Positions 8,559 to 51,901 of a stretch of DNA of 64,000 bases are shown in pieces; the stretch's first letter is position 1; every line of letters begins with the position of its first letter. The DNA is taken from positions 1,736,001-1,800,000 of the forward strand of contig NZ_JAGINT010000002.1 of NCBI RefSeq assembly GCF_017876295.1, given 5' to 3'. The stretch is from Kribbella aluminosa (GTDB lineage Bacteria; Actinomycetota; Actinomycetes; Propionibacteriales; Kribbellaceae). A program made the translations under genes and the position numbers. Under the pieces are notes generated by a model that saw only the letters and a list, made by a program, of their open reading frames with translations, did no database searches and was not told the DNA's origin.

Positions 8559-8619
8559 TATGCAGATCCTGCAGATTCTTGCTCATAAATGCTTGCCAGG
8601 TGAGTTTGTCAGGAGCAAG

Positions 8620-9747: not shown

Positions 9748-9770
9748 CCACCAGGTCGGAAGGAGTACTC

Positions 9771-25874: not shown

Positions 25875-27182
25875 ATGACCCGTTCCCCTGCGTCCCGGCC
25901 GCTCAGCAGGCGGGCCCTGCTGGGCGGCGCCGCTGCGCTCGGAGCAGCTGCCGCCACTGGCGGACTGTCAGGTTGTGGCTCACCTGCCTCGCTCTCCGCG
26001 GACCCGAGCGAGCTGGTGCTGTGGTACTGGAACCGTGCGGTGACGCCGGAGCTCCTGGCGCAGGCCGCCGAGCACATCCCCGGCAGTCCCGGTCGTCGTG
26101 TCCGTGGAGACCTCATCGGTGCCGGCTTCGACACCAAGCTACGGACGAGCCTGGCAGGTGATGCCTACATCCCGAACATTACGCTGATCAATTCCAACTG
26201 CGCGCTGTACTTCCCGAACGAATCCCTGTTTCTCGACTTCTCCGAGCTCGGTGCAGCGCAGTACCGCGACCTGTACTACCCGTGGAAGTTGAAGCTGGGC
26301 ACGACCCCGTCCGGCCGGTTGTGCTTCTGGCCGCTCGACACCGGTCCGACCGGCTTCTACTACCGGGCGGACCTGTTCGACAAGGCCGGGCTACCGTCTG
26401 CGCCCGACAAGGTCAGCGCCGCGATCCGTACCTGGGACCAGTGGATCGAGCTCGGCCGGGAACTCCGGGCCAACGGCGGACCGGCGATGGTCAACTCCGC
26501 CGCTGTCGTCTTCGGGCAATTCATCAACGCCAGCCCCGAGCGCTACTTCGACGAGCAGGACCGCCCGATCTTCGCAGCCGAAGGCAGCGCCGTACGGCGA
26601 GCCTGGGACACGGCGGTCAAAGCCGTCGACGCCGGGATCACCGGCAACCAGCAGACCGCGACCGGTCAGAACTCCGCCTGGGTGACCGGTGCGACGGCTG
26701 GGCACATCGAGGCTGTCTGGTGGGCGGAAATCCTCGGTGACACCGCACCGAAGACCAAGGGCCTCTGGCGGATCGCGGATCAACCGGTGGCGCCGGGGAA
26801 CAGCGGTGGATCGTTCGTCGCCATTCCCCGGTCCTGCAAGGATCCCGAGGCTGCCTTCAACTTCACCACCTGGTTGACCAGTCCGGCGAACCAGGCCGTG
26901 GCGTTCAACAAGATCCAGCTGTTCCCGTCCTCGCCGGCGTCGTTCGAGCGGGGTGGCCTGCGTGCCGATGCAACGTTCTTCGGCAGCCAGAACATGCTGC
27001 GGTTCTTCTCCGACGCCGCTCGAAGAGTGCCGTCGACCTTCGTCAGTACCTACGAGAGTCAGGTTGAGGCCTTTGCCGCCGAGCTCGCGAACGTGGAGAG
27101 CGGTGGCAAGGCCCCGGAGCAGGCCTGGGAGGACGCGGTCGCCCAGGTGAACCGCGTGCTGAAGAAGCGAGGAGTGATCTGA
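25875..27182 (+). CDS. Sugar ABC transporter substrate-binding lipoprotein (importer 3)
   Basis: A 435-residue binding protein exported by the Tat system: LSRRALLGGAAALG gives the twin-arginine motif and LSGC the lipobox near residue 34. The mature part has ELVLWYWNRAVTPE, GRLCFWPLDTGPTGFYYRADLFDKAG near 148 and a binding-site-like QNSAWVTGATAGHIEAVWWAE near 262. The stop overlaps the first permease start by one base (TGATG). Its neighbours are the divergent beta-helix protein and the AraC regulator downstream. The ligand is unknown. Confidence 0.92.
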   Translation: MTRSPASRPLSRRALLGGAAALGAAAATGGLSGCGSPASLSADPSELVLWYWNRAVTPELLAQAAEHIPGSPGRRVRGDLIGAGFDTKLRTSLAGDAYIPNITLINSNCALYFPNESLFLDFSELGAAQYRDLYYPWKLKLGTTPSGRLCFWPLDTGPTGFYYRADLFDKAGLPSAPDKVSAAIRTWDQWIELGRELRANGGPAMVNSAAVVFGQFINASPERYFDEQDRPIFAAEGSAVRRAWDTAVKAVDAGITGNQQTATGQNSAWVTGATAGHIEAVWWAEILGDTAPKTKGLWRIADQPVAPGNSGGSFVAIPRSCKDPEAAFNFTTWLTSPANQAVAFNKIQLFPSSPASFERGGLRADATFFGSQNMLRFFSDAARRVPSTFVSTYESQVEAFAAELANVESGGKAPEQAWEDAVAQVNRVLKKRGVI

Positions 27183-28180
27183 TGACGCTGAGCTTGACCA
27201 CTCAACCGGCCGGCCGAACCGCGGGGACCGGTGCAGTTGCCAGAGGCCCCCGTCGCCCGCTGCGGTCATTCTGGCCCCAGTATCTGGCCGTAGCGCCGTT
27301 CTACCTGCTGTTCTTGATCTTCGGGCTGTTCCCCATCGGGTTCTCGATCTACTTGTCCTTCACCGACTGGGACGGGATCGGGAAGATCAAGTTCGTGGGC
27401 CTGGCTCAGTACCAGTACCTGATCAGCGACCCGCGGTTCTGGAACGCGGTGGGGAACACCTTGGTCATCTGGTTGCTGGCTACCGTTCCGATGCTGTTTC
27501 TCGCGCTGGTGCTCGCCTTTCTGCTGCACCAGAACATCCGGTTCAAGTCGGCGTACCGGGTTGCGTACTTCCTTCCCAACGTGACCAGCATGGTGGCGAT
27601 GGCGATCGTCTTCGGGTCGGTCTTCTCGGACAGCTTCGGGCTCGTCAACTCGGCCCTCACCGCGCTGGGCGTGAACGAAGTGCCGTGGCTCTCCTCGAAC
27701 TGGGGGATCAAGATCACCATCGCGGTCATGGTGATCTGGCGCTGGACCGGCTACAACGCGATCATCTACCTCGCCGGTCTGCAGGCGATCCCGACCGAGC
27801 TGTACGAGTCCGCCCGCGTCGACGGTGCCGGCAACTGGCACATCTTCAGCAAGCTCACTGTGCCGCTGCTGCGTCCGGTGATCCTGTTCACGGTGATCAC
27901 CTCCACCATCGGCGGTCTGTCGCTGTTCACCGAGCCGCAGGTGCTGCTGGGCAACAACGGCGGCACCGACGAGGCAGGCATGACGATCGTCCTCTATCAG
28001 TACAACCAGGCCTTCACCCAGTTCGATTTCGGCTACGGCTCCGCGATCGCCTGGGCCTTGTTCATCATCGCCTTGGTGTTCGCGGTCATCAACTGGCGGC
28101 TGGTACGCGAGCGTAGTACGGACTCTTCGTCGCAGCGACGGCTGTGGACCGCCACGACGCGGAAGGGGATCACCCGATGA
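27182..28180 (+). CDS. Sugar ABC transporter permease, MalF type (importer 3)
   Basis: A 332-residue permease with an extended cytoplasmic N-terminus, six membrane segments and the EAA loop ESARVDGAGNWHIFSKLTVP near residue 208. The start shares one base with the binding-protein stop, and the stop overlaps the next permease (ATGA). Confidence 0.93.
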   Translation: MTLSLTTQPAGRTAGTGAVARGPRRPLRSFWPQYLAVAPFYLLFLIFGLFPIGFSIYLSFTDWDGIGKIKFVGLAQYQYLISDPRFWNAVGNTLVIWLLATVPMLFLALVLAFLLHQNIRFKSAYRVAYFLPNVTSMVAMAIVFGSVFSDSFGLVNSALTALGVNEVPWLSSNWGIKITIAVMVIWRWTGYNAIIYLAGLQAIPTELYESARVDGAGNWHIFSKLTVPLLRPVILFTVITSTIGGLSLFTEPQVLLGNNGGTDEAGMTIVLYQYNQAFTQFDFGYGSAIAWALFIIALVFAVINWRLVRERSTDSSSQRRLWTATTRKGITR

Positions 28181-29004
28181 CCGTCAGAGTAGTCTCCCGG
28201 CTCGTCACCCATCTGTGCGTGCTCTTCGGCGTGCTGCTGTCGGTGTTCCCGTTCTATTGGCTGGTGGCGATGTCCACTCAGACCACTGCCGAGATCTTCG
28301 GCTACCCGCCGCGGCTGACGTTCGGCCCGGAGCTGCTCACCAACATCCGGTCGGTGATCCACAACGTCGACCTGATCCAGGCCCTGTTCTACACGGTGAT
28401 CGTGTCGGCGGCCTCGGCGCTGCTGGTGATGTTCTTCGACTCGCTGGCCGCGTTCGCGTTCGCGAAGTACAGCTTTCCCGGCAAGAGCGTCTTGTTCGTG
28501 GCGTTGCTGGTGACGATGCTTGTCCCCGGCAACCTTTCGCTGGTGCCGTCGTTCGTACTGATGAGCCACCTCGGCTGGGCCGGCAGCCTGCAGGCCCTGA
28601 TCATCCCCGGGGCCGCCAATGCGTTCGGCATCTTCCTGCTCCGGCAGTTCGCGGCCGGGTCGATCCCCGACGAACTGGTGGACTCGGCGCGGATCGACGG
28701 CGCGGGGTTCTTCCGCACCTACTGGAGCGTGGGTGTGCCGATGCTGCGCGGCGGACTGGCCTTCCTCGGCATCTTCACCTTCATCTCGGCCTGGAACGAC
28801 TACGTGTGGCCCCTGATCGTGCTGGTGAACCCGCGCGTGCAGACGCTGCAGACGGCGCTGTCGACGCTGAACTCGGTCTACGGCACCGACTACGGTGCGG
28901 TGATGGCCGGCGCGTTGGTGAGCTTGCTTCCACTGATCGGGATCTTCATCATCGGCTCACGGCACTTCATCGCCAACATCGCGGCGGGCGCGCTGAAGGG
29001 CTGA
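28177..29004 (+). CDS. Sugar ABC transporter permease, MalG type (importer 3)
   Basis: A 275-residue permease with six membrane segments and the EAA loop DSARIDGAGFFRTYWSVGVP near residue 167. The C-terminal FIANIAAGALKG is typical. It is the last gene of the operon, converging on the AraC gene with only 19 bases between stops. No ATPase follows. Confidence 0.93.
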   Translation: MTVRVVSRLVTHLCVLFGVLLSVFPFYWLVAMSTQTTAEIFGYPPRLTFGPELLTNIRSVIHNVDLIQALFYTVIVSAASALLVMFFDSLAAFAFAKYSFPGKSVLFVALLVTMLVPGNLSLVPSFVLMSHLGWAGSLQALIIPGAANAFGIFLLRQFAAGSIPDELVDSARIDGAGFFRTYWSVGVPMLRGGLAFLGIFTFISAWNDYVWPLIVLVNPRVQTLQTALSTLNSVYGTDYGAVMAGALVSLLPLIGIFIIGSRHFIANIAAGALKG

Positions 29005-29023: not shown

Positions 29024-29899
29024 TCAGGTCGTGGGGCTGTGGGTGACTGTGCCGTTGCGCCGGAACTCACGGGGCGGCAGGCCGACCCGGGTGGTGAAGA
29101 GCCGGCTGAAGTACGCCGGGTCGTCGTACCCCGTACGGTGCGCGATCGCGGCCACGGTGAGAGTGGATCCGGTCAGTAGCGCCTTCGCCTCGTTCAGCCG
29201 GACCCCGAGGAGGAACTCCTGCGGGTTCAGGCCGGACACGTTCCGGGTGGCGGCGCGGAGCCGCGGCACGGTGATGCCGAGCCGGGCGGCGTGACCGGGT
29301 ACGGACGTCGGCGTACAGGCGCCGTCGCGCAGGCGTTCGACGAGTTCGGAGTCGTCCGGGCCGGTGCTGGGTGTGGCTTGGCCGGCGCCGATCAGCAGTT
29401 CGTGGAGGGCCGGGACGGCGCGTACGTCGGCCGCGGGGTGCGGCTGCCGGCAGAGGTCGAGCAGCCGGCCGAACGCCTGCTCGACGCGAAGCCGGTTCCC
29501 GGAGCGGGCGTCGAGTGGCAGTACCGGGCGTTCTGGGTCGAGGTAGCCGAGTGCGGAGTACGCCGCGGCGGCGGGACCGTCGTACAGCACCCAGGCCTGC
29601 GTCCAGCCGGACCCCGTCGGCCGATAGCCGTGCAGGACGCCCGGGAACAGCCACAGCACGGCAGGGGCCCGAACCTCGGTGATCCGACGGCTCGGGCCGT
29701 GCAGGAGGGCGCCGTGACCGGCACGGAGCAACACCGCCGCATGGCAGCCAAGGGCGCGTTCCGCGGTCGGCCCGGGCGGATTGCGCTCCTCGCCGACTCC
29801 GAGGCAGAAGAGTCCAAGTCGTCGATGTGCCGCGCCAGGAGTGAGATAGGTCGACCAGTCCTCAGACGGATGGGCGACGCCGGGGACCCGAGAACTCAT
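29024..29899 (-). CDS. AraC family transcriptional regulator
   Basis: A 291-residue regulator with an N-terminal cupin-like sensor domain (VLLRAGHGALLHGPSRRITEV near residue 58, APAVLWLFPGVLHGY near 80) and a C-terminal pair of helix-turn-helix units, the second ending in the signature IAHRTGYDDPAYFSRLFTTRVG near residue 265. AraC regulators of this build usually activate sugar genes. It lies convergent to importer 3 and a shared decamer links its promoter to the importer 3/beta-helix intergenic region, which suggests it controls both. Confidence 0.9.
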   Translation of the reverse strand: MSSRVPGVAHPSEDWSTYLTPGAAHRRLGLFCLGVGEERNPPGPTAERALGCHAAVLLRAGHGALLHGPSRRITEVRAPAVLWLFPGVLHGYRPTGSGWTQAWVLYDGPAAAAYSALGYLDPERPVLPLDARSGNRLRVEQAFGRLLDLCRQPHPAADVRAVPALHELLIGAGQATPSTGPDDSELVERLRDGACTPTSVPGHAARLGITVPRLRAATRNVSGLNPQEFLLGVRLNEAKALLTGSTLTVAAIAHRTGYDDPAYFSRLFTTRVGLPPREFRRNGTVTHSPTT

Positions 29900-29996: not shown

Positions 29997-30845
29997 TCAG
30001 GGTTGGTTGATGAGGGTTTGGGCGGCGAGGGTGATGAGGTGGTCCATGGCGGGGCCGTCCATGGTTGGGGGTTGGAGTAGGAGGCGGTGCACGCCTAGGG
30101 CGGCGTACTGGCGGGCGGTGGCCGGGTCGGGGATGCGGTCTGGGGTGACGGTGATCTCCAGGTTGCCGAGGTCGGTTGGGCGGTTCCAGCGCTTGGACGC
30201 TTCGCGGAGGCCGGTCAGTGCGGCCGCGGTTTGCCCGAGGTCGAGTTCCCAGCCGTACCAGCCGTTCCCCTGCTCGGTCGCGCGACGGTAGGCGGCCGGG
30301 GAGTGGCCGCCGACCACGATCGGCGGCCGCGGCCGCTGCACCGGTCGAGGCCGTTCGAAGACGTTGGCGAAGGCAACGAAACGCCCCTCGAAATGTGGAG
30401 CCGGTTCGGCCCACAAGGCCCGCATCGCGGCGAGGTACTCGTCGGTTCTGGCGCCACGTTCGGACAGCGGCACGCCGAGGGCAGACAGTTCAGGTTCGAC
30501 GTACCCGACGCCGATCCCGACGGTGAGCCGTCCGCCGGACAGGTGGTCGATGGAGGCCAGCTGCTTGGCCAGCAGCACCGGCTGCCGCTGCGGCAGGACG
30601 ATCACACCGGCTCCCAGGCGGATCCGGTCGGTGAGCGCCGCCAGATGTGCGAGCGCGACCAGCGCCTCGATCCGCGGCTGCTCGCGAGAGTCCTCGTCGT
30701 TGTCGGGCAAGGCGATGTGGTCGCCGACCCAGAGTGATTCGAACCCGGCGTCTTCGGCCAACCGGGCCCGGCGGGCCATCGTCGCCGGATCGGCGCTGCT
30801 GCCCCGATGCAGGCCGTACAGCCCGAACTTCAGTTCGTTCGCCAT
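29997..30845 (-). CDS. LLM class F420-dependent oxidoreductase
   Basis: A 282-residue luciferase-like monooxygenase-fold protein. Marks include ARLAEDAGFESLWVGDHIALP near residue 27, TDRIRLGAGVIVLPQRQPVLLAKQ near 73, LSGGRLTVGIGVGYVEPE near 98 and PPIVVGGHSPAA near 170. This subgroup in actinomycetes usually uses cofactor F420 rather than FMN. The substrate is unknown. It stands apart from the neighbouring operons, with about 97 bases to the AraC start and a separate divergent gene upstream. Confidence 0.9.
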   Translation of the reverse strand: MANELKFGLYGLHRGSSADPATMARRARLAEDAGFESLWVGDHIALPDNDEDSREQPRIEALVALAHLAALTDRIRLGAGVIVLPQRQPVLLAKQLASIDHLSGGRLTVGIGVGYVEPELSALGVPLSERGARTDEYLAAMRALWAEPAPHFEGRFVAFANVFERPRPVQRPRPPIVVGGHSPAAYRRATEQGNGWYGWELDLGQTAAALTGLREASKRWNRPTDLGNLEITVTPDRIPDPATARQYAALGVHRLLLQPPTMDGPAMDHLITLAAQTLINQP

Positions 30846-31010: not shown

Positions 31011-31559
31011 ATGATCGAGAACATGAACGGGCACACGCTCCGAACGGTCGTGGCGATCGTGAACTCTGGGCCCGAAGTGGACGGCGTCGACCTGCTCGCC
31101 TCGATCGTGGACCTCTCCCAGGCGGTCGAGGAGTGGGTCGTCACCGACATTCCCCCGATCACGATCGGCGACCTGGAAGACGTTCGTTCGTTACGCGACA
31201 GACTCCGCCCCGTGTTCACGTCGCCGGACGACGAGACCCGGGAGCAGCTCATCAATGAGCTGCTCAGCACAGCTACGGTGCAGCCGAGGCTGGTTTCGCA
31301 TGATCATCTCGGCCGGCATATTCACTACTTCCCTTTGCAGGCGCGTATTGCGGAGCACCTGCAAGCGGACTGCGGAATGACCCTGGCCATCGTCCTTGCC
31401 TCTGGGCAGGGGCGACGCCTGCGAGAGTGCTCGGCGCCGGACTGCGGCAGGGTCTTCGTCGACGTTTCCAGGAATGCAAATCGCCGCTATTGCGACTCCC
31501 GGCGCTGCGGGAATCGAATCAATGCCGCGGCATACCGGGCGCGACAGCGCAGTAGTTGA
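31011..31559 (+). CDS. CGNR zinc finger protein (copy 1)
   Basis: A 182-residue protein of the ABATE/CGNR family: a helical N-terminal domain and a C-terminal zinc finger with cysteines in CSAPDCGRVFVD and RRYCDSRRCGNR near residues 140-170, the family signature, followed by a basic tail. Such proteins are thought to bind DNA and are common in actinomycetes; targets are seldom known. A second copy, about the same length and with matching segments (RPVFTSPDDETREQLINELL here, RAVFIAPDRQAKISIVNELL there), lies at 51902-52456. The two copies bracket the catabolic island. A downstream ATG four codons in is an alternative start. Confidence 0.88.
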   Translation: MIENMNGHTLRTVVAIVNSGPEVDGVDLLASIVDLSQAVEEWVVTDIPPITIGDLEDVRSLRDRLRPVFTSPDDETREQLINELLSTATVQPRLVSHDHLGRHIHYFPLQARIAEHLQADCGMTLAIVLASGQGRRLRECSAPDCGRVFVDVSRNANRRYCDSRRCGNRINAAAYRARQRSS

Positions 31560-31575: not shown

Positions 31576-32547
31576 CTACCCCTCAACGGTCATAGCGGTC
31601 TGGACGCTCAGAGCGTTCGCGCCGCACAGGATGACGACCGGTGGGGCATCGCTTGCGGAGCGAACCAGGCCACCCATCACTGCAGCGAATGCGGCACCAG
31701 CAGATGGTTCCACCGCCAGTTTGAAGTCTTGCCACAGATACTCTCGGGCCATCTCGATCGCCTTGTCGTCCACCAGGACGCTGGTGACGTCGGGGTTCTG
31801 GTGGCAGATTTCGAACGCCAGCGATCCGATGCGAGCAGCACCGAGGGTGTCGGCCGCCAGCGTGTCCACCTCGACGTCGACCGGCGCTCCGGCCCGAAGG
31901 GCTCGATTGAACGACGGCGCCCCCGTCGGCTCGACTCCGACGGTTTCATAGCCGAGGTACTCACCGGCAAGCGCAACACCGGCGAGGAGGCCACCACCTC
32001 CGACCGCGACGACGATCGGCCCGTGACCGGGTGACTGCTTGACCAGATCGAGGGCAACCGTGCCCGCACCTGCGACTGCATCGACAGAATTGTAGGGATG
32101 CAGCATCACGGCCTTCGTGCGATCGGCGATGGTTCCGGCGATCTCATGGGTTTCGGCATGTGTCTCGCCTTGTGCGACAACCTCGACACCGAGCTGGCCC
32201 AGTTGGGCCAGCCGGCTCGGTGACGCCCAGGTCGGGACCACGACAGTCAGAGCGACGTCGAGCGACTTGCAGGCTACCGCCGCCGCGATGCCGGCGTTTC
32301 CGCCCGAAGCGATGACGAAGCGCTTCGGTCCCGAGCGGCTGCTCTCGCGGGCCATTCGAATGACTGCGTTGTAGGCTCCGCGGGCTTTGAAGGTGCCCGA
32401 GACCTGGAGGTGTTCGAGCTTCAGGAGGACATCTCGCTCACCGTCCACCGTGCGCACCCGCGCCGGCCACAACGGTGTCTTCCGTACGAAGGGCGAGATG
32501 CGCCGTTCCGCCGCGAGTATCTCGCGCATCGATGGCACCGCACTCAT
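31576..32547 (-). CDS. PLP-dependent threonine/serine dehydratase-like enzyme
   Basis: A 323-residue fold-type II PLP enzyme without an ACT domain, like catabolic serine/threonine dehydratases and serine racemases. The PLP lysine is in SGTFKARGAYNAV near residue 55, the phosphate region in VIASGGNAGIAAA near 83, and the glycine loop in VVAVGGGGLLAG near 180. The start is fixed by a four-base ATGA overlap with the M20 gene. It is last in an operon with a Gfo/Idh/MocA dehydrogenase, a metal hydrolase and a deacylase, suggesting that a hydroxylated or amino-substituted acid freed by the deacylase is deaminated here. Confidence 0.88.
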   Translation of the reverse strand: MSAVPSMREILAAERRISPFVRKTPLWPARVRTVDGERDVLLKLEHLQVSGTFKARGAYNAVIRMARESSRSGPKRFVIASGGNAGIAAAVACKSLDVALTVVVPTWASPSRLAQLGQLGVEVVAQGETHAETHEIAGTIADRTKAVMLHPYNSVDAVAGAGTVALDLVKQSPGHGPIVVAVGGGGLLAGVALAGEYLGYETVGVEPTGAPSFNRALRAGAPVDVEVDTLAADTLGAARIGSLAFEICHQNPDVTSVLVDDKAIEMAREYLWQDFKLAVEPSAGAAFAAVMGGLVRSASDAPPVVILCGANALSVQTAMTVEG

Positions 32548-33698
32548 GCCATCTCGCCGTCCGACAGGAGCGCTTCGACGAAGCGCACACCAGAACTCAG
32601 CTGACTGATCTCGATGAACTCGTCCTTCGTATGTGCCTGCTCGATCGATCCGGCGCCGAAGACGAGCGTCGGGATGCCGGCGCGCGCCAACTTCGAGGCG
32701 TCGGATCCGAACGGCACTCCGATCGGCGAGGGGTCGAGGCCCGCCGCGCGGAGCGATCGCCGAACATCGTGGACGAACGGTGAATCGGCATCCGCGTCCA
32801 TGCCGTAGTCGATCAGCGAGGGCGGTCCTACTTCCGCCGCCGGCCACCGTCGCTCGATGTCCGCTTTGAACGCTTGCCAAATGTCCAGCGGGTCATCGGA
32901 CGGGAGCGTCCGCTGATCGATCTCGATGGACGCCTCGGTCGGGATCAGGTTCACGCCTTCGCCGCCACGCATCGTCGTCACGGCGATCGTTCCCGCTCCG
33001 AGCAGCGGATGTACCCGATCGCGCAGCGCACCCGAGACGTCGTTGGCGATGTAGTTGGTGATCTCGGCACAGATGTAGATCGGATTGAGCTGAGCGTCGG
33101 GTCGCGAACTGTGTCCACCGGTTCCGCGCACGGATATCCGGCAGCGCAGCACACCCTTCTGGGCAACCACGAGCCGGAGGGAGGTCGGCTCACCGACGAT
33201 CGCACCGATACATGCGGGGAGTTCGTCACACAAGGCCGTGACTCCTCGATAGCGTTCTTCCTCGTCGACGCAGGCGGCAATGACGACTCCGTGGTGCGGT
33301 CGCGCCCCACGAGACACGTTCTCGACCGCGGCCATGAAGATGGCGAGTTGCCCCTTTGCGTCGCAGACACCGCGTCCGGTAACGCGGTCGTGCGCTCCAG
33401 CCCGGCCCAGCGCGAACGGCGGAACGGTCATGCCGCCGACCTCGACGGTGTCGGTGTGTGTCTGCAGCAGGATCGTTCCTGGGAGCTCACCCGGCACGGT
33501 GACGTAGACGTTGGCCCGGGCAGGTACTGCGTCCTTCATGCGCGACGCCCAACCGTGTGCTCTCGCCCATTCGTCCACATACACAGCAACCTCGGTCTCG
33601 CCACCGTCCGTGGCACCAAGGCGTGGATTGACGCTCGGGATCGCGATGAGATCCTCGAGCAGTTCGATCACTCGCAGCGCGTTCACGTCCTGCCTCAC
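32544..33698 (-). CDS. M20 family deacylase (ArgE/DapE-like)
   Basis: A 384-residue di-zinc amidase. Marks are IPSVNPRLG near residue 20, the metal histidine in LLQTHTDTVEVGG near 80, the bridging aspartate in GVCDAKGQL near 112, the catalytic acidic pair in DEEERYRG near 143, GEPTSL near 168 and GTGGHSSRPD near 188 of the lid domain. These enzymes remove acyl groups from amino acids or dipeptides. The start codon overlaps the amidohydrolase stop and the stop overlaps the dehydratase start, so all three are translationally coupled and probably act in sequence. Confidence 0.9.
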   Translation of the reverse strand: MRQDVNALRVIELLEDLIAIPSVNPRLGATDGGETEVAVYVDEWARAHGWASRMKDAVPARANVYVTVPGELPGTILLQTHTDTVEVGGMTVPPFALGRAGAHDRVTGRGVCDAKGQLAIFMAAVENVSRGARPHHGVVIAACVDEEERYRGVTALCDELPACIGAIVGEPTSLRLVVAQKGVLRCRISVRGTGGHSSRPDAQLNPIYICAEITNYIANDVSGALRDRVHPLLGAGTIAVTTMRGGEGVNLIPTEASIEIDQRTLPSDDPLDIWQAFKADIERRWPAAEVGPPSLIDYGMDADADSPFVHDVRRSLRAAGLDPSPIGVPFGSDASKLARAGIPTLVFGAGSIEQAHTKDEFIEISQLSSGVRFVEALLSDGEMA

Positions 33699-34540
33699 GA
33701 TATGCCTGCGCGCACGTGCGCAAGGAGTTGATCCAGGTTGTCCCTGAAGACGAGGCGCAGTTGCGAATCGTCGAGCGACTGCAGTCCTGGTACGTCCACT
33801 GCCTGCTGGAACGGTAAGAACTCGAGGACAGGCGAGTAGTCACTGCCCCATAGAAGTCGCTCAGGGCCGACGCTGTCGACGAGCCAATGAATCCAGTCGC
33901 ACGCCGCGGCGGCGAGGTCATGAGCGCGCCCCGGTGCGACCGTTGCGTAGGCTCCGGAGAGTTTCGTGTGGCAGTTCGCCAGCATCAGCAGGTCCTTCGT
34001 CGCCGCCAGAGACTTGTCCAACGGATCCGGCTGTACGCCGGGTAACCCCAGATGGCTCATCATGAAGACCAGGTCCGGGCGGCGGCTCAACACGCCGTAC
34101 AAGGCCCGGTGTGTGGCCGGGCCGGCGTTGATGCTGAGCAACAGCTGCTGCTCGTCGAGGACCGCCAGCGTCTGCGTCATCCAGCCGAACCAGTCGGGAT
34201 CTTCTACCTGTTGCGCATCCACGTAAGCACTTGCCCCGACAAATCCTTTGGCACGGAGCTCGGCGATCGAGCTCGCCGTGGTTCCCGGCGCGATGTAGGC
34301 GACGGGATGCATCCACGCATTCGTCGTCGACAATGCGCGGATGAACTCGTTGTTCCCCTTGAACCGTGGGATGCCCTCGTAGCCGATGACAAGTGCGTCG
34401 GCGAGCTCATGTTGTCCGCGGAGCTCCGCATAGTGTGCGACTTCTCCCTCGGGATGTGCTGCCTGCTGACGATCGCTGTACGAGCCCTCGAAGAAGTGCA
34501 CATGCGCGTCGGCGCGTCTGCGGGGTATCGGTCGGCGCAT
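33695..34540 (-). CDS. Amidohydrolase_2 family TIM-barrel metal hydrolase
   Basis: A 281-residue enzyme of the amidohydrolase superfamily. The metal-binding HxH is in RADAHVHFF near residue 13, a later histidine in MMSHLGLPG near 170 and the catalytic aspartate in LLWGSDYSPV near 237. Relatives include sugar-lactone hydrolases and 2-pyrone-4,6-dicarboxylate lactonase, as well as decarboxylases. After a Gfo/Idh/MocA dehydrogenase in the same operon, a lactonase role is attractive: the dehydrogenase would make a lactone and this enzyme open it. It overlaps the M20 gene by four bases. Confidence 0.82.
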   Translation of the reverse strand: MRRPIPRRRADAHVHFFEGSYSDRQQAAHPEGEVAHYAELRGQHELADALVIGYEGIPRFKGNNEFIRALSTTNAWMHPVAYIAPGTTASSIAELRAKGFVGASAYVDAQQVEDPDWFGWMTQTLAVLDEQQLLLSINAGPATHRALYGVLSRRPDLVFMMSHLGLPGVQPDPLDKSLAATKDLLMLANCHTKLSGAYATVAPGRAHDLAAAACDWIHWLVDSVGPERLLWGSDYSPVLEFLPFQQAVDVPGLQSLDDSQLRLVFRDNLDQLLAHVRAGIS

Positions 34541-34566
34541 GGGCGGTCCAGTCCTCCTGATGATGA

Positions 34567-35517
34567 TCAGGACGTCAGGTATTCGGGCGTGATCGGCACC
34601 GCAGTGCGGGTCGTTGCAGCGGTCGTTATGGCCTCGGCCAGGGCAATGCCGGCGAACGCGTCATCGAGCGAAACGATCTCGGACGGAACCCCCCGCCGTG
34701 CGCAGTCGACGAAATGGCTCAACTCGCGGCGCAAAGCCTGGTGCAGTACGTCCTCGTCGCTCCCGTCGAACCTGACGCGGAGGATCCCGGTTTTCAGAAC
34801 CACGGTGAGCTCGTCACCGGGATACCGTTCGTTCTCGGTCAGCAGCCAGCTACTCGAGAACGACCAGGAAAGGCCGTTCGCCAGCTCCATGACGGCGGAC
34901 AGGCAGACGCCGAGCTTGCCGTTCTCACCGACCGGCGCGACCGCGACGACGGAGGACGGCACCTCGCCGGTCAGCCACAAAGCCAGGTCGATGTCGTGGA
35001 TCGTCGTCATCAGCGGGATGCCGACGTCGCTGAACAGGACCTGGTGGTCGCGGGGACGGTGGCGTTGTGCGTGTACGGCCAAGACGTCCCCCGGTTGCCC
35101 GGAACCGACGGTCCGGCGCAGTCCGAGGTATGGCGAGGCGAATCTCAGGATGTGCGCCGGAACGATCGGCGCGAGACGACTCGCTTCGCGGAGCGTGCCG
35201 AACTCGGCCCGGGAGACAGCGACCGGCTTCTCCACGAGTGCGGCGACACCGCGTGCCGCCGCCTGCGTCGCGAAGTCCGCGTGGGTCGTGCCGGGACTGA
35301 CGATCGACACCGCATCGACGACATCCGCATCGAGCATGTCGACCGCGTCAGCGAATGCCGGAACACCGCCGGCCTTCTCCGCAGCCCGCGCGGCACGCTG
35401 GGGATCGGCATCTGCCACAGCGGTCACCTGGACACCGGGCATCTCCAGGTAGGCGTTCAAATGCGCAAGCCCGAATGTCCCCACACCGATGACACCGACC
35501 CGAACGTGATCAGTCAT
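34567..35517 (-). CDS. Gfo/Idh/MocA family oxidoreductase (copy 1)
   Basis: A 316-residue NAD(P)-dependent sugar or cyclitol dehydrogenase. The start is the ATG before TDHVRVGVIGVGTFGLAHL, which gives the Rossmann loop at the N-terminus; upstream bases GGGGGTGG are a modest ribosome site. The family motif AALVEKPVAVS near residue 90 supplies the catalytic lysine, and TTIHDIDLALWLTG near 165 the conserved histidine. It opens the four-gene run ending with the dehydratase, with 26 bases to the amidohydrolase. Confidence 0.92.
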   Translation of the reverse strand: MTDHVRVGVIGVGTFGLAHLNAYLEMPGVQVTAVADADPQRAARAAEKAGGVPAFADAVDMLDADVVDAVSIVSPGTTHADFATQAAARGVAALVEKPVAVSRAEFGTLREASRLAPIVPAHILRFASPYLGLRRTVGSGQPGDVLAVHAQRHRPRDHQVLFSDVGIPLMTTIHDIDLALWLTGEVPSSVVAVAPVGENGKLGVCLSAVMELANGLSWSFSSSWLLTENERYPGDELTVVLKTGILRVRFDGSDEDVLHQALRRELSHFVDCARRGVPSEIVSLDDAFAGIALAEAITTAATTRTAVPITPEYLTS

Positions 35518-35671: not shown

Positions 35672-36346
35672 TCAGTAGGTCGCGCGGCCGCCACTGATGT
35701 CGTAGACCGCGCCCGTGGAGAAGCTCACCCGGTCCGACGCCAGGAACGAGATGAGCTCGGCAACCTCCTCGGGCCGGCCGACTCGCTGCATGGGGATCAG
35801 GCTGGTGATGTGGGCGAGGACTTCGGGGCTGGTGCTGTCGTTCATCGGAGTGGCGATCACAGCCGGAGCGATCGCGTTGACGAGGACACCGGTGGTCGCG
35901 AGCTCCTTGCCGATGGACTTGGTCAAGCCGATCACGGCGGCTTTTGTGGCCGAATAGATGGAGAGATTCGGATTGCCGTCCTTGCCGGCCATGCTGGCGA
36001 AGTTGACGACCCGACCCCATCCGCGCTCGCACATGCCGGGTACGAACGCCCGCAAGGTGTTCACGGTGCCGACGACGTTCACGTCGATGACCCGGTGCCA
36101 ATCGTCGGAGGTGGTGTCCAGCAGCGGTTTGTTCGGCCCCACGATGCCGGCCGAGTTGATCAGTACGTCGACGGGCCCGAGCTGTTCGGCGACCCGACCG
36201 AGTGCATGCTCATCGGTGACGTCGGCGGTCAGGTCCGCGCCCTGCAGGTCGAGTGTGTGTACTTGCAGCCCGTCGGCGCGAAGCCGTCGGGCCGCCGCGG
36301 CGCCGAGTCCACTGGCGCCGCCGGTGACGAGTGCGGTTCGAGTCAT
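35672..36346 (-). CDS. SDR family oxidoreductase (left of divergent pair)
   Basis: A 224-residue short-chain dehydrogenase. The start follows GAGGGG and gives MTRTALVTGGASGLGAAAARR with the TGxxxGxG cofactor loop; NSAG is near 85, and the catalytic serine, tyrosine and lysine are in VNFASMAGKD and IYSATKAAV near residues 125-150. The end SFSTGAVYDISGG is typical. It reads toward the Gfo/Idh/MocA operon, 154 bases away, and may be part of it. The second SDR, 254 bases upstream, is divergent. Confidence 0.92.
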   Translation of the reverse strand: MTRTALVTGGASGLGAAAARRLRADGLQVHTLDLQGADLTADVTDEHALGRVAEQLGPVDVLINSAGIVGPNKPLLDTTSDDWHRVIDVNVVGTVNTLRAFVPGMCERGWGRVVNFASMAGKDGNPNLSIYSATKAAVIGLTKSIGKELATTGVLVNAIAPAVIATPMNDSTSPEVLAHITSLIPMQRVGRPEEVAELISFLASDRVSFSTGAVYDISGGRATY

Positions 36347-36600: not shown

Positions 36601-37317
36601 ATGACATTGACGGGTCAACGTGTACTGGTGACCGGCGGCACCCGGGGGATCGGACGAGCCATCGCCGATGCGTTCCTAGGCAGGGGATGCGAGGTCGTCA
36701 CGATCGACGTCGATCCCGCCGACACGTCCTGGCCGCACTACCAATTCGATCTGGCGGACACCGCCGGGATCGCTGATCTGGTATCGACGATAGTGCAGCA
36801 GGAGGGACCGCTCGACGTCCTGGTCAACTGTGCCGCGATCCCCAGCCGGGTGGCGTTTGCGGACCTCGGGATCGACCACTTCGACCAGGTGATGAGCGTC
36901 AATCTCAAGGCGGCGGTCTTCCTGGCCCAAGCCGTTGCCCGTGGAATGGCTGACCGCGGCTACGGCCGAATCGTCAACATCACGTCGATCCACGGCTCCC
37001 GCGGTGAACGAGAGTGTCTTGTCTACGACATGTCCAAGGCCGCACTGGGCGCGTTGACCCGGACGCTCGGTGTGGAGCTGGCCGGATCCGGAATCCTGGT
37101 CACCGCCGTAGCGCCGGGTTTCATCGACACCCGTGGCGCCGATCTGACGACGGACAGCTTCACGACGGTCTACCAGCAGTTCGGCAAGCTGCCGCTCGGC
37201 CGTGCCGGGCGGCCCGAAGAGGTCGCCGAACAGGTCGTTTGGCTGGCCAGCCCGCAGAACAGCTACGTGACCGGAACCGCGTTGGCCGTCGACGGTGGCC
37301 TCTCGGCCACCTTCTGA
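36601..37317 (+). CDS. SDR family oxidoreductase (right of divergent pair)
   Basis: A 238-residue short-chain dehydrogenase with VLVTGGTRGIGRAIA at the N-terminus, an aspartate in VVTIDVDPADTS that favours NAD, NCAAI near 78, and the catalytic ITSIHGSRG and VYDMSKAALG near residues 125-150. It ends with YVTGTALAVDGGLSATF. It is divergent from the other SDR, and the 254-base space between them contains GCCGT-ATCCTTGC-ACGGC, an inverted repeat that may be regulatory. About 140 bases downstream begins the GntR-controlled pair of secreted proteins. Confidence 0.92.
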   Translation: MTLTGQRVLVTGGTRGIGRAIADAFLGRGCEVVTIDVDPADTSWPHYQFDLADTAGIADLVSTIVQQEGPLDVLVNCAAIPSRVAFADLGIDHFDQVMSVNLKAAVFLAQAVARGMADRGYGRIVNITSIHGSRGERECLVYDMSKAALGALTRTLGVELAGSGILVTAVAPGFIDTRGADLTTDSFTTVYQQFGKLPLGRAGRPEEVAEQVVWLASPQNSYVTGTALAVDGGLSATF

Positions 37318-37458: not shown

Positions 37459-38304
37459 ATGGACCGCATCATCACGTCAGGAGTAAACCGGAGAACGTTT
37501 CTGGTTGGCAGCATCGGCACTGCTGCCGCGCTCGGCCTGTCGAGCCGGCCGGGCGTCGCGTCGGCCGCACCGACGTTCAAGGTGTACAACGCCGTTCGGG
37601 CACGCCCCGACCTGAGTGCCTACGGCGTCCCCAAGCGCACGATGATCTACCAGAATGCGCTGGTCGTGAACGGGACCGGCGACGAGACCCTCGTGAAGAA
37701 CACGATCCAGACCAACATGACGGCCGGGGTCACTCAGGCGTGCTTGGACATCGAGGCATGGCCGCTGGACAGCCTCCCCGATGCCGACTTCGCGGTGAAC
37801 GCGGCCAAGTACAACGAGGTCGCGGGCTGGGTGAAGGAAGTGAGTCCGTCGTTCCGCCTCGGCTGGTACGGCATCCTGCCGCGGCGCGACTACTGGTCGG
37901 TCATCCAGGGGACCACGGCCGCCTGGTACGCGGACAATGCCCGGCGCCAGGTCATCGCGGATCACGTTGACGACGTCTATCCGTCGCTCTACACGTTCTA
38001 CACCGACCAAACCGGCTGGGTGAACTACGCGAACGCCAACCTGACGCAGGCCGGGATCTACAACCGTCCCGGCTACGCGATCATCTGGCCGAAGTACCAC
38101 CCCAGCGCGCCCGCGGACATTCGCGGAACCTTCATCGCTCGTGACTACTGGCGGCTGCAGCTCGAAACCGTCCTGGCCCACCAGCAGTCGGCCGGCTCTG
38201 CCATCGTCGGCGTCGCCATCTGGAACGACGACTCGACCTGGGACCCGACCGCCGATTGGTGGCTGGAAACGATCGACTTCGTCAACGATCACAATCTCGG
38301 CTAG
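37459..38304 (+). CDS. Tat-exported GH56 (hyaluronidase)-like protein
   Basis: A 281-residue secreted protein. The start has AAGGGG upstream; NRRTFLVGSIG is a Tat motif and the signal ends near ASA-AP. The mature part begins FKVYNAVRARPDL and shows ACLDIEAWPLD near residue 100, LGWYGILP near 142 and VDDVYPSLYTFY near 180. These resemble the animal and venom hyaluronidase landmarks: the Asp-x-Glu catalytic motif, the YG strand and the YPSIY strand. That is pattern recognition from memory, and the protein is shorter than classical GH56 enzymes. It is followed after 22 bases by a DUF4838 glycosidase. A weak alternative is an uncharacterised TIM-barrel family. Confidence 0.6.
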   Translation: MDRIITSGVNRRTFLVGSIGTAAALGLSSRPGVASAAPTFKVYNAVRARPDLSAYGVPKRTMIYQNALVVNGTGDETLVKNTIQTNMTAGVTQACLDIEAWPLDSLPDADFAVNAAKYNEVAGWVKEVSPSFRLGWYGILPRRDYWSVIQGTTAAWYADNARRQVIADHVDDVYPSLYTFYTDQTGWVNYANANLTQAGIYNRPGYAIIWPKYHPSAPADIRGTFIARDYWRLQLETVLAHQQSAGSAIVGVAIWNDDSTWDPTADWWLETIDFVNDHNLG

Positions 38305-38326: not shown

Positions 38327-40846
38327 ATGTCTTTCGAGCTGTCCAGACGTTCCCTGCTCGGTGGCCTCGGAGCGACCGCGGTCGCCTTCGGCCTGACCCG
38401 GACCTCGTCAGCGGCCGGCGCCACCGGCCTGCCTTTCGTGGTCGACGGGGCCGCCAAAGCAGTCGTCGTCGTACCGGACGCTGCCGATCCGCAAGTGAGT
38501 GCGGCGGCCGCGACATTGATTTCGACGATCGCGACCTCAACCGGCGTGACCCTCCCAAGGCTTACCGAGTCGGCAGCTACGGAGACCGCCTACCCAGGAT
38601 GGACCCGGATCAGACTGCGCGTCGCAAGCGACCGAGACACCGACGAACTCAGCCGGCAGGCGCTCTCGTTACCCGGCGACGGCTACTTGATCGCACCGGC
38701 CCAGACGGCGGTCACCGTCATCGCGGCATCGCCGTGGGGTACTCGATTCGGAACCTACGCGCTGCTGACCAAGGTCGTCGGCGCCGAGTGGATCATGCCC
38801 GGCCCGTCCGGCGCGGACATCCCGGCGTCGACGAATCTCGACGGGCCGGCAGCGACGATCCTGTCGGTACCTGCCTTCGCCAGTCGTCAGCTCTATCCGC
38901 TGGGCATCGGAAACACCTGGGACAGTACGAACGTCCTGGCCAAGTGGGGCGCCCAGAACCGCATGCACGAGACGCGAAGCTATTCGCACAACCTGTCGCG
39001 GATCTTCTCTCCGGCCCTGTACGGCGATCCGCAGAAGCCGGATACCTATCGACCTCAGCTCTATCCCCTCCGAGGTGGCGTACCGTACATCCCGCCGGCG
39101 ACGACGGCCACCGGCTGGCAGCCGCGCCTGACTGTGCCGGAAACGGTTGATATCGCCGCGCAGGCGGCGATCAGCGCCTTCGACGCGGACCCGGAACGCC
39201 GGGCGTTCTCGCTCGGCATCAACGACTCCGGCGGATTCAGCGAAGACGAGTACGAGCTGAGCGGGTACGACGAGTTCGGCCTCCGCAGCCTGTCGAACGT
39301 CTACTACGCCTGGGTCAACGCCGTCGCCGAAAAGGTCGCCGTCGCCTATCCGGATCGGCTGCTCGGGCTCATCGCCTACAACGAGGTGGCCGCCCCGCCG
39401 GACTTCGACGTACACCCGAACGTGATGCCGTATCTCTGTCGCGATCGGTACGGCTGGGTCGATCCGGGCACCAAGGCGGCTGATCTCCGCAGACACGAGG
39501 CCTGGCAGCGGCGGGCGTCGACCTTGGGCTGGTACGACTACGCGTACGGCGCTCCCTACCCGATCCCCCGGATCGCCGGCACGGCACTCCAGGACGCGTA
39601 TTCGTACGCGGCCGGTCATGACGTTCAAGGCGTCTTCGCCGAGCTCGCGCCGAACTGGGGCGACGGGCCGAAGGCCTGGATGTTCACGAAGCTCCTGTGG
39701 GACCCGAGCCTGGATGCGTCAGCCCTGCTGGAGGAGTGGTGCCGGCGGGCCGTCGGGCCGGCTGCCGCCGCCGATCTGATCGCCTACTTCCAAACCTGGG
39801 AAGCGATCTGGACAGATCGGGTGCCTGCCACCGAATGGTTCGGCGCCACTGGTGGGTCGACCTACTTTCCCTTCTACCAGGCCGACTTCATCGACGTCAT
39901 CGAGCCTGCCGAGATCGCCCAGCAGCGCCAACGCCTGGAACGCGTCGAGCTCCAGGCCGACTCCGCGCCGAGGAAGGCCAGGGCCGAGGTCCTGCAGCGT
40001 GCGTTCTCCTATTACGAGGCGTCGGTCCTCAGCTTTCCGCGCGCGACCCCGCCACCGGTTGACGAGATCACCGCGTCGGCCCTGTTGGACGACGTGACCG
40101 GCCGGCTGGACGATTCCATCGCCCTCGCCGCCAAGCGAGGCCAGCTGATCGACGAATTCAACGGGGACCCGCTGCTTCGCCACTCCACGGACGCCCGGAA
40201 GGTGGGGATGAACTGGTCGGGCTGGAACCTGCCGGTGCTCTGGCAGCTGGCCGAGTTCATCCAGTGCGGCGGCGCGGCTGCCGCGCACGTACGGACGAAG
40301 GTCCGGCAGCTGATCGATTCGGCAGCGTCGGCGAACGTCAAGAGCTACGCCGAGATGTTGCTGCAGGTGGCGGATCGCGAGGTGACCACGCTCGGTGTGA
40401 ACACCCGGTTCGCCGACGGGACGATCGCGCCCTGGCTGATCGAGTCCAGCGAACCGCCGCGCGAACCCGCGGTCATCGCGACCGAGCACGGTCGCCACCT
40501 TCTCCGGGTGGCCGGCGGCTTTCGCTCGGGCGGTATTTCCCAGGCCATTGCGGTGCAGCCAGGGCTGATCAGGCACCACCTCCGGTACCGGGTCACCGCG
40601 GATGCAGGCTCCGGTGGTGCGATGCAGCTGACCTGGTACCTGCTCAACGCCACCGGCGGCCTCGTCCAGCTGTATCGCGGCCGCCGTCGTCAGCTGTCCG
40701 GCACCGGCGGGCACTGGACCGACCTGGTAGGACTGGAGATGCTGCCGGCCGGAGTGACCACGGCCAAGCTGTACGTGTCGTTCCTGGGCATCCCGGCCCA
40801 GACCACGGTTGATTTCGATCGGATCGAGTTCAACCAGCTCCGCTGA
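38327..40846 (+). CDS. Tat-exported DUF4838-type glycosidase (GH67/GH20-like N-terminus)
   Basis: An 839-residue secreted protein with AGGAG before the ATG and a Tat signal (LSRRSLLGGLGATAVAFG) ending near SSA-AGA. Residues about 35-165 form the alpha/beta N-terminal domain shared by GH67 and GH20 enzymes (VVVVPDAADPQVSAAAATL, GDGYLIAPAQ, WGTRFGTYALLTKVVG). The central domain (about 175-600) has FSLGINDSGGFSEDEYE near 300, LIAYNEVAAPPDF near 348 and GVFAELAPNWGDGPKAWMF near 430, as in DUF4838 proteins. A beta-sandwich of about 150 residues ends it. The activity is unproven; release of uronic acids or amino sugars is plausible. It shares an operon with the GH56-like protein. Confidence 0.78.
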   Translation: MSFELSRRSLLGGLGATAVAFGLTRTSSAAGATGLPFVVDGAAKAVVVVPDAADPQVSAAAATLISTIATSTGVTLPRLTESAATETAYPGWTRIRLRVASDRDTDELSRQALSLPGDGYLIAPAQTAVTVIAASPWGTRFGTYALLTKVVGAEWIMPGPSGADIPASTNLDGPAATILSVPAFASRQLYPLGIGNTWDSTNVLAKWGAQNRMHETRSYSHNLSRIFSPALYGDPQKPDTYRPQLYPLRGGVPYIPPATTATGWQPRLTVPETVDIAAQAAISAFDADPERRAFSLGINDSGGFSEDEYELSGYDEFGLRSLSNVYYAWVNAVAEKVAVAYPDRLLGLIAYNEVAAPPDFDVHPNVMPYLCRDRYGWVDPGTKAADLRRHEAWQRRASTLGWYDYAYGAPYPIPRIAGTALQDAYSYAAGHDVQGVFAELAPNWGDGPKAWMFTKLLWDPSLDASALLEEWCRRAVGPAAAADLIAYFQTWEAIWTDRVPATEWFGATGGSTYFPFYQADFIDVIEPAEIAQQRQRLERVELQADSAPRKARAEVLQRAFSYYEASVLSFPRATPPPVDEITASALLDDVTGRLDDSIALAAKRGQLIDEFNGDPLLRHSTDARKVGMNWSGWNLPVLWQLAEFIQCGGAAAAHVRTKVRQLIDSAASANVKSYAEMLLQVADREVTTLGVNTRFADGTIAPWLIESSEPPREPAVIATEHGRHLLRVAGGFRSGGISQAIAVQPGLIRHHLRYRVTADAGSGGAMQLTWYLLNATGGLVQLYRGRRRQLSGTGGHWTDLVGLEMLPAGVTTAKLYVSFLGIPAQTTVDFDRIEFNQLR

Positions 40847-40888: not shown

Positions 40889-41761
40889 TCAGCCCTTGAC
40901 CGCGCCGGTGAGAACTCCCTTGGTGAAGTGCTTCTGCAGGAAGGGATAGACACAAGCGATCGGGATCAGCGAGAGCACCAGGATCGCCATCTGCAAGGCC
41001 GGCTGGGACGGTGGCACGGCGCCGGCATCGGTGACGCCGACTTGGCTGTTGTTGATGAGGTACTGCCGCAGGACCAGTTGGATCGGCCACTTCTTCTGGT
41101 CGTCGATGTAGAGCATCGCCGAGAAGAAGGTGTTCCAGAAGTTCACGGCGTAGAAGAGCCCGATAGCAGCCAGGATCGGCTTCGACAGCGGCAGCACGAT
41201 GGTCCAGAAGATCCTGAACTCGCCGGCACCGTCGATCAGAGCCGCCTCCGTCAGTTCAGCGGGAAGGCTTCCGAAGAACGCGCGCATGACGATGACGTTG
41301 AAGGCGCTGACGGTCACCGGGATGATCAAGGCCCACAGCGAGTTCAGCAATCCGAACTGTTTGACCGTCAGATACATCGGGATCATGCCGGCGGAGAAGA
41401 GCATGGTGGCCAGGACGCCCAGCAGGATCACCCGCCCGAACAACAGGTGCGTGCGCGACAACGCGTAGGCCAGCGTCGACGTCACCGCCAGAGCCAGCAG
41501 CGTGCCCACGATCGTGACAAAGGCGGAGACTCCGAGCGCGGTCGTCACCTGCCCGCCGGCGAGGATCGACCGGTAGGCGTCGAACGTCGGACGCTCCGGC
41601 CACAGCACCAGGCCGCCACCTCGGCCGACCTGCGACGAATCGGCGAGCGAGGTCGAAACCACCATCACGAACGGGCCGAGCACGATCAGGCAGCACAGCG
41701 TCAAGATGATCATCTTGCCGACCTCGGCCGGTGCGTGCGGCCGACGAGTGAGCGAGGTCAT
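40889..41761 (-). CDS. ABC transporter permease, YtcP/MalG type (importer 4)
   Basis: A 290-residue permease with six membrane segments and the EAA loop EAALIDGAGEFRIFWTIVLP near residue 170. It is of the YtcP/LplC kind, which pairs with LplB-type permeases and large lipoproteins to import complex saccharides. The motif NNSQVGVTDAGAVPPSQPALQMA near 237 is characteristic of this subgroup. It overlaps the upstream permease by four bases. Confidence 0.92.
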   Translation of the reverse strand: MTSLTRRPHAPAEVGKMIILTLCCLIVLGPFVMVVSTSLADSSQVGRGGGLVLWPERPTFDAYRSILAGGQVTTALGVSAFVTIVGTLLALAVTSTLAYALSRTHLLFGRVILLGVLATMLFSAGMIPMYLTVKQFGLLNSLWALIIPVTVSAFNVIVMRAFFGSLPAELTEAALIDGAGEFRIFWTIVLPLSKPILAAIGLFYAVNFWNTFFSAMLYIDDQKKWPIQLVLRQYLINNSQVGVTDAGAVPPSQPALQMAILVLSLIPIACVYPFLQKHFTKGVLTGAVKG

Positions 41762-51857: not shown

Positions 51858-51901
51858 GGCGACTCCTTTGAGCAGGTCGATTGCCGGAAACGCTGACAGG
51901 A

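Follow-up and report, generated by a model that had tools for sequence, protein, structure and literature searches.

A stretch of 64,000 nucleotides from Kribbella aluminosa (contig NZ_JAGINT010000002.1, positions 1,736,001 to 1,800,000), hereafter called the window, carries a four-gene operon that may encode a non-phosphorylating oxidative pathway for an N-acylated amino sugar. The genome comprises 8.9 Mb in two contigs, and the GC content of the window is 65-69%. The operon spans positions 31576-35517 of the window, and its four open reading frames (ORFs) all lie on the minus strand and are complete, with the family motifs intact. They encode, in this order, a Gfo/Idh/MocA dehydrogenase of 316 amino acids (34567-35517, coordinates including the stop codon; Pfam GFO_IDH_MocA, 4e-22); an Amidohydro_2 hydrolase of the COG3618 type with 281 amino acids (33695-34540; Amidohydro_2, 5e-18); an ArgE/DapE-like M20 deacylase of 384 amino acids (32544-33698; Peptidase_M20, 1e-26, together with M20_dimer, and NCBIfam); and a dehydratase or ammonia-lyase of 323 amino acids belonging to the fold-type II enzymes dependent on pyridoxal 5'-phosphate (PLP) (31576-32547; PALP, 4e-57). 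ORFs and Pfam matches thus bear out the gene order given by an earlier sequence-only reading, which had also described ATGA overlaps among the last three genes. The overlap between the M20 and PLP genes is indeed ATGA, but that between the amidohydrolase and M20 genes is GTGA, the M20 start codon being GTG. The dehydrogenase and amidohydrolase genes are separated by 26 bases. The PLP reading frame stays open upstream as far as 32880, and we infer that it starts at the ATG at 32547.

The dehydrogenase retains the EKP (96-98) and HD (174-175) motifs, which are invariant across seven aligned sequences. Its nearest NCBIfam models are UDP-N-acetylglucosamine (UDP-GlcNAc) 3-dehydrogenase, the best one, and inositol 2-dehydrogenase, and it scores far under both cut-offs. 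For the amidohydrolase, a single-sequence search of the PDB returned no relatives at E-values up to 0.1. A family profile of six relatives matched 2ffi (LigI-type, 8e-16) and 4dlf (COG3618, 5e-12). A structure model built from a seven-row alignment reached a predicted local distance difference test (pLDDT) score of 87.5. In structural alignment, 4do7 and 4dlf were the best among the structures listed (Z 26; for 4do7, Z 26.1 over 259 aligned residues with a root-mean-square deviation of 3.0), and LigI-type structures (Z 22-24) scored above decarboxylases (Z about 19-21). Foldseek likewise placed COG3618/LigI-type structures on top (3e-12 to 1e-11). Residues H13, H15, H163, K193, S195, G196, W231, S233 and D234 are invariant in seven sequences and align with the equivalent motifs of 2ffi: HxH, the barrel histidine, KxSG and W(G/A)SD. 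We take these motifs to be family-defining and catalytic in COG3618 lactonases, and we equate 4dlf with the L-fucono-1,5-lactonase from Burkholderia multivorans, the entry itself being named no more precisely than as a COG3618 amidohydrolase from this organism. Sequence and fold both relate the window enzyme to COG3618 (LigI, L-fucono-1,5-lactonase), and a lactonase-type activity is its best-fitting predicted function. The assignment of L-fucono-1,5-lactonase to COG3618 is given by the title of a paper in the reference list of PMC13406643.

The M20 protein has the ArgE/DapE layout of a catalytic and a dimerisation domain. Its putative metal ligands, presumably H81, D113, E147, E170 and H356, are preserved and invariant in six sequences. 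It falls under the cut-offs of all of the best 25 NCBIfam models listed, with ArgE/DapE the nearest; against acetylornithine deacetylase (TIGR01892) it scores 177 bits, the cut-off being 297.7. The PLP enzyme narrowly misses the cut-off of the serine/threonine dehydratase PRK08246 (308.5 versus 331 bits) and lies far below that of the beta-hydroxyaspartate dehydratase BhcB (141.7 versus 550 bits). Relatives of the PLP enzyme at E ≤ 1e-30 occur in all 38 genomes of the genus that were searched. The nearest second copy in the same genome is 40% identical, and the copy in a related operon from another family (locus L037) is 50% identical. In a tree of 15 rows, the window and L037 copies pair with a support of 88/85, both on long branches flagged by the program, and the other copy of the genome groups with the copies of the genus, apart from this pair. 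This pairing is suggestive, not conclusive.

The amidohydrolase clade is rare. A single-sequence search in a sample of 293 genomes of the order found matches at E ≤ 1e-15 in four, the own genome included, the others being G022 (5e-67), G161 (2e-33) and G218 (2e-29). With a profile, four of the 293 fell below 1e-104, and the fifth, G040, reached only 1.5e-26; G040 lies outside the clade and was left out of the counts. In a sample of 394 genomes of the class, four reached 1e-30 (the own genome, G409, G509 and G510). The profile E-values are flattered, as most matched proteins sat in the alignment; G510 was not in the alignment of the class search. Among 396 genomes of the phylum, the own genome was the sole match at 1e-25 with the single sequence. 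Two of 12 genomes in the genus of G509 have matches, and a plasmid search yielded four weak records. The clade thus counts seven genomes: the own genome, G022, G161, G218, G409, G509 and G510.

The partner genes recur around this hydrolase. Dehydrogenase and M20 genes lie near it in six of the seven genomes (the exception being G022), PLP enzymes, of three kinds in all, stand at five of the seven loci, each paired with the deacylase (exceptions G022 and G161), and a CGNR-type regulator is found at four. Only G022, G161, G218 and G510 count as independent for the M20 association, since it was M20 that first led to G409 and G509. Of these four, which the amidohydrolase alone had brought up, three carry an M20 gene no more than 5 kb away, against about 0.09 such neighbours expected from M20 counts of 17, 12, 7 and 3 in 7.9, 4.9, 3.7 and 1.5 Mb and a 10 kb stretch in each.

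The closest parallel is locus L037 in G509, a genome of another family in the same class. It holds the four genes in the order of the window, which the sequence-only reading had suggested looking for in other genomes, and has GTGA and ATGA overlaps at the likeliest starts. Its proteins are 36% (dehydrogenase), 32% (amidohydrolase), 51% (M20) and 50% (PLP) identical to those of the window. The full arrangement is D-serine-dehydratase-like (fold III), Gfo, amidohydrolase, M20, fold II PLP enzyme, epimerase and CGNR regulator. Because order and overlaps recur there, the four genes are a real unit, conserved though rare.

Other members of the clade vary this set. Locus L039 (G409) combines an M20 gene (37% identity), an amidohydrolase-PLP fusion, an epimerase, a creatininase-family protein and a Gfo gene. 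The fusion, at 10560-12593, joins a COG3618-type amidohydrolase and a class V PLP enzyme (cysteine-desulfurase-like family) in one ORF, with no inner starts near the joint. Locus L036 (G218) holds genes for a CGNR regulator, a class V PLP enzyme, the amidohydrolase, a Gfo enzyme and another M20 protein. L035 (G161) has CGNR, amidohydrolase, Gfo and M20 genes, an adjoining GHL6 glycosidase and no PLP gene by BLAST. L045 (G510, a 1.5 Mb genome; locus GC 47%) runs M20, Gfo, class V PLP enzyme, amidohydrolase and a rhaM mutarotase, followed by an alcohol dehydrogenase and an M81 protein and then by a fold III PLP enzyme, a RidA-family protein, a short-chain dehydrogenase/reductase (SDR) and a D-aminoacylase-type gene.

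Two further loci were found through M20 and, having no amidohydrolase of the clade, are not among the seven. L038 pairs a 45% identical M20 with a fold III PLP enzyme directly next to it and an ABC transporter of the SBP_bac_1 type; L040 has a 35% identical M20, a class V PLP enzyme, a creatininase-family protein, a Gfo gene and DUF4432. Fold III PLP genes occur in L037 and L038 and near L040 and L045; the window operon has none. D-aminoacylase-type pieces were seen in L037 and L040 within the 20 kb examined. L039 (13575-14762) and L040 (12420-13550) also share a protein of about 390 amino acids, 50% identical between the loci, the L039 copy being without a Pfam match. A scan of genome contigs with M20 gave 16 loci, mostly from Verrucomicrobia, Kiritimatiellae and Lentisphaerae, which were kept out of the counts. 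Their identity is 27-36%, except for a short piece at L024 (62% over 29 residues). In the other 15, several of them short, BLAST matches were confined to M20 and to some SDRs or epimerases, with no relatives of the dehydrogenase, amidohydrolase or PLP enzyme.

Common to these loci is a deacylase whose product, probably a 3-hydroxy-2-amino acid, would pass to a PLP enzyme, in the company of a dehydrogenase and a lactonase-type hydrolase. Oxidation of an N-acyl-2-amino sugar at C1 gives exactly such a series of compounds. The Gfo/Idh/MocA enzyme would oxidise the sugar at C1 to a lactone, which the COG3618-type amidohydrolase would open to an N-acyl-2-amino aldonic acid. The M20 enzyme would then take off the acyl group, leaving a 2-amino-3-hydroxy acid (the 2-amino aldonic acid), which the PLP enzyme would turn into a 2-keto-3-deoxy acid by eliminating water and ammonia. 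Further oxidation by the SDR encoded just upstream of the operon (35672-36346), or cleavage by an aldolase, might follow. With three KDPG-aldolase-family genes, the genome could make use of a 2-keto-3-deoxy acid. In our estimate, the chance is about even that the operon serves the non-phosphorylating, oxidative breakdown of a free N-acylated 2-amino sugar, with reactions and substrate predicted from the gene families. The oxidation, ring opening, deacylation and loss of ammonia suggested by the sequence-only reading are the best-fitting chemistry. They are partly supported by the kept gene order, the lactonase-type amidohydrolase, the single mutarotase and the deacylase-PLP pairs.

SBP_bac_1 proteins often serve sugar transport. 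Binding-protein transporters of this family are present in L037 and L038; together with the rhaM gene of L045, which points to an aldose substrate, and a DUF4838 protein of the window, they point to sugars, none of them decisively. Several observations weigh on the other side. The operon contains no 2-keto-3-deoxygluconate (KDG) kinase or aldolase, the KDPG-aldolase-family genes lying elsewhere in the genome. The rhaM-type mutarotase was found in just one distant relative, and the oligopeptide-type transporter beside that same locus points away from sugars. The closest amidohydrolase copy found (43%, locus L034 in G022) stands without partners, and the M20 proteins of L035 and L036 are only about 25% identical to that of the window, so the association there is one of family and not of close relatives. 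The dehydrogenase could also oxidise a carbon other than C1. Moreover, the nearest models of the M20 and PLP enzymes are amino-acid enzymes (ArgE/DapE and serine/threonine dehydratase, with BhcB at 142 bits), and 3-hydroxy-D-aspartate aldolase (BhcC) is the best-scoring model for the fold III PLP enzymes of L037 and L038 (104 and 93 of 690 bits).

Between the two substrates that the sequence-only reading had offered, an N-acylated amino sugar acid or a hydroxy-amino acid, the sugar acid is favoured, and the plain hydroxy-amino acid is the main rival. The operon would then degrade an N-acylated 3-hydroxy amino acid, such as N-acyl-3-hydroxyaspartate or an N-acyl-serine/threonine derivative, the M20 enzyme deacylating and the PLP enzyme deaminating a compound that the dehydrogenase and amidohydrolase make from another precursor. 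The model scores of the PLP enzyme, which favour serine, threonine and 3-hydroxyaspartate dehydratases, agree with this, as do the BhcC match of the fold III partners, the ArgE/DapE likeness of the deacylase, and the oligopeptide-type transporter and D-aminoacylase-type genes beside L045. The explanation is nevertheless unlikely: it leaves no clear role for the dehydrogenase, the lactonase-type amidohydrolase or the L045 mutarotase, the BhcB and BhcC scores are far under cut-off, and the transporters of L037 and L038 are of the SBP_bac_1 type.

The amidohydrolase might alternatively hydrolyse a cyclic amide or decarboxylate its substrate, with the dehydrogenase acting at another position of a nitrogen-containing ring or a glycoside, for example in a 3-keto-glycoside route. 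Its superfamily includes decarboxylases and amide hydrolases, decarboxylases are structural neighbours at Z 19-21, the best NCBIfam model of the dehydrogenase is a 3-dehydrogenase, and creatininase-family proteins stand at L039 and L040. However, COG3618/LigI-type structures outrank decarboxylases in the sequence-profile search, in Foldseek and in structural alignment alike, which leaves this option with a small probability, somewhat below that of the hydroxy-amino acid. Very improbable is the idea that a common promoter is all that links the genes and that their reactions have nothing to do with each other. In its favour, the protein families are common (M20 alone has 14 matches in the genome), and none of the other 37 genomes of the taxonomic family matches the window M20 at E ≤ 1e-60; against it, the gene order, the overlaps and the association are seen again in other taxonomic families, and amidohydrolase and PLP enzyme are fused in L039. 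A ureide or allantoate route, in which an M20 enzyme works with a class V aminotransferase, was considered and set aside because the nearest M20 models are ArgE/DapE.

The back half of the proposed amino-sugar pathway would repeat the logic of a known one with other enzyme families. In the ong pathway of Pseudoalteromonas (OngB-OngC-KdgK), which processes oxidised chitin, OngB deacetylates N-acetylglucosaminic acid (GlcNAc1A), and OngC, a fold type III PLP enzyme, deaminates the product to KDG (PMC9537276). The sugar is oxidised extracellularly by a lytic polysaccharide monooxygenase, and the passages of that paper at hand mention no lactonase (PMC9537276). OngB is a D-aminoacylase-type (beta/alpha)8 amidohydrolase (PMC12017989). 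As far as these sources describe it, the likeness lies in the fate of an N-acetylated 2-amino aldonic acid, which loses first its acyl group and then, through a PLP enzyme, its amino group, and becomes a 2-keto-3-deoxy acid with no phosphorylation beforehand. The window operon differs in its M20 deacylase and fold II PLP enzyme, in the additional dehydrogenase and lactonase-type steps, and in having no KDG kinase in its cluster. Membership in the ong pathway was set aside, as the deacylase is not of the OngB type and the PLP enzyme is not of the fold III OngC type.

The front half resembles the non-phosphorylative L-fucose pathway, which, in the available part of its description, consists of a dehydrogenase, a COG3618 lactonase, a fuconate dehydratase and a 2-keto-3-deoxyfuconate (KDF) dehydrogenase (PMC13406643). 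The two would share the dehydrogenase and COG3618-type lactonase, a possible later SDR and, in one relative, a mutarotase; in the window, however, a deacylase and a PLP ammonia-lyase stand in place of the fuconate dehydratase, and the dehydrogenase is of the Gfo/Idh/MocA type. The families of BhcB (fold II dehydratase) and BhcC (fold III aldolase) also have a 3-hydroxy-2-amino acid as substrate, but the scores of the window and its relatives are about 4 to 7 times under the curated cut-offs. The beta-hydroxyaspartate cycle was set aside because of the BhcB score, and we know of no deacylase, lactonase or sugar dehydrogenase in it. The sequence-only reading knew of no described pathway with this exact set. 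Among the matches listed in open-licence literature, no paper describes the whole four-gene combination, although deacylation followed by deamination is familiar from the ong pathway, in other protein families, as far as its description was available (PMC9537276).

Several genes adjoin the operon. An SDR oxidoreductase (35672-36346, minus strand, Pfam; start uncertain, at the ATG at 36346 or further upstream) lies 154 bases upstream and is 42% identical to the SDR adjoining the L039 cluster. A CGNR zinc finger/ABATE protein (31011-31559, plus strand, Pfam) converges with the operon end and is its candidate regulator; in L035, L036 and L037, homologues of 45-50% identity are no more than about 5 kb away from genes of the cluster. 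Cluster membership is uncertain for a second, divergent SDR (36601-37317, plus, Pfam) and for a secreted-looking DUF4838 protein (38327-40846, plus; Pfam DUF4838, 1e-35), for which a sequence search of the PDB gave no matches at E-values up to 1. The family is labelled GH163 in a table, and endo-N-acetylglucosaminidase is named in the available text (PMC9870897). The protein could possibly supply sugars of the N-acetylglucosamine (GlcNAc) type. Between the second SDR and the DUF4838 gene, positions 37459-38304 encode a protein with a signal resembling that of twin-arginine translocation and without a Pfam match, whose single-sequence structure model (pLDDT 36) is not interpretable.

Further away, three consecutive Gfo/Idh/MocA-family genes lie at 48911-52456 on the minus strand, adjoined by a second CGNR-type regulator with 44% identity to that at 31011; in this genome, CGNR regulators may go together with Gfo clusters. 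Two sets of ABC transporter genes lie some way off on either side of the region (25875-29004, with SBP_bac_1; 40889-44315, permeases); between them are also genes for an AraC-type regulator (29024-29899) and for an F420-type luciferase-like oxidoreductase (29997-30845). Neither the operon nor the neighbouring genes scanned include a KDG kinase, and the window genes that were scanned yielded a single PfkB kinase, 22 kb off at 8560-9744. Enolase-superfamily sugar acid dehydratases gave no Pfam matches among the subset of ORFs scanned at 24-52 kb.

The configuration at C2 may distinguish the window operon from the ong genes. With its D-like C2, D-glucosaminic acid suits the D-amino-acid-type OngB and OngC. 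The usual substrates of ArgE/DapE-type M20 enzymes and fold II serine/threonine dehydratases are L-amino acids; sugars with an L-like C2, such as N-acetylmannosamine (ManNAc) or N-acetyl-L-fucosamine (L-FucNAc), may accordingly be what the window operon handles. A complete, undescribed actinobacterial oxidative route for free N-acyl-2-amino sugars, in which M20 and fold II enzymes handle L-like substrates (ManNAc, L-FucNAc) and the fold III or class V enzymes of relatives handle other sugars, is a tentative and rather doubtful extension. L038, which pairs its M20 with a fold III enzyme, speaks against any strict rule.

On the other contig, unlinked to the window, locus L072 (G000:C1:747001-766000) carries fold III D-serine-dehydratase-like, D-aminoacylase-like and KDPG-aldolase-family genes consecutively at 8591-12219 on the minus strand. 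The first is 43% identical to its counterpart in L038, and the second is 45% identical to that of L045; the only PF14031 match of the genome lies in this trio. To judge from the families, the trio looks like a D-configured counterpart comprising deacylase, PLP deaminase and 2-keto-3-deoxy acid aldolase, built from other protein families than the window operon. Neither D-aminoacylase-type protein is put forward as an OngB: the L072 protein is nearer to D-aminoacylases (258 versus 225), and the scores of the L045 protein are close (219 bits for 1m7j versus 210 for PpOngB).

If the amino-sugar pathway proposed for the operon is true, it would add a further, kinase-free use of amino sugars by bacteria to the textbook phosphorylating route, and it would assign functions to four proteins so far named by superfamily only. 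The combination of COG3618 hydrolase, Gfo dehydrogenase, M20 deacylase and PLP enzyme would be a gene signature marking such pathways. The chitin-oxidation logic of OngB and OngC would then have been assembled again from unrelated enzyme families.

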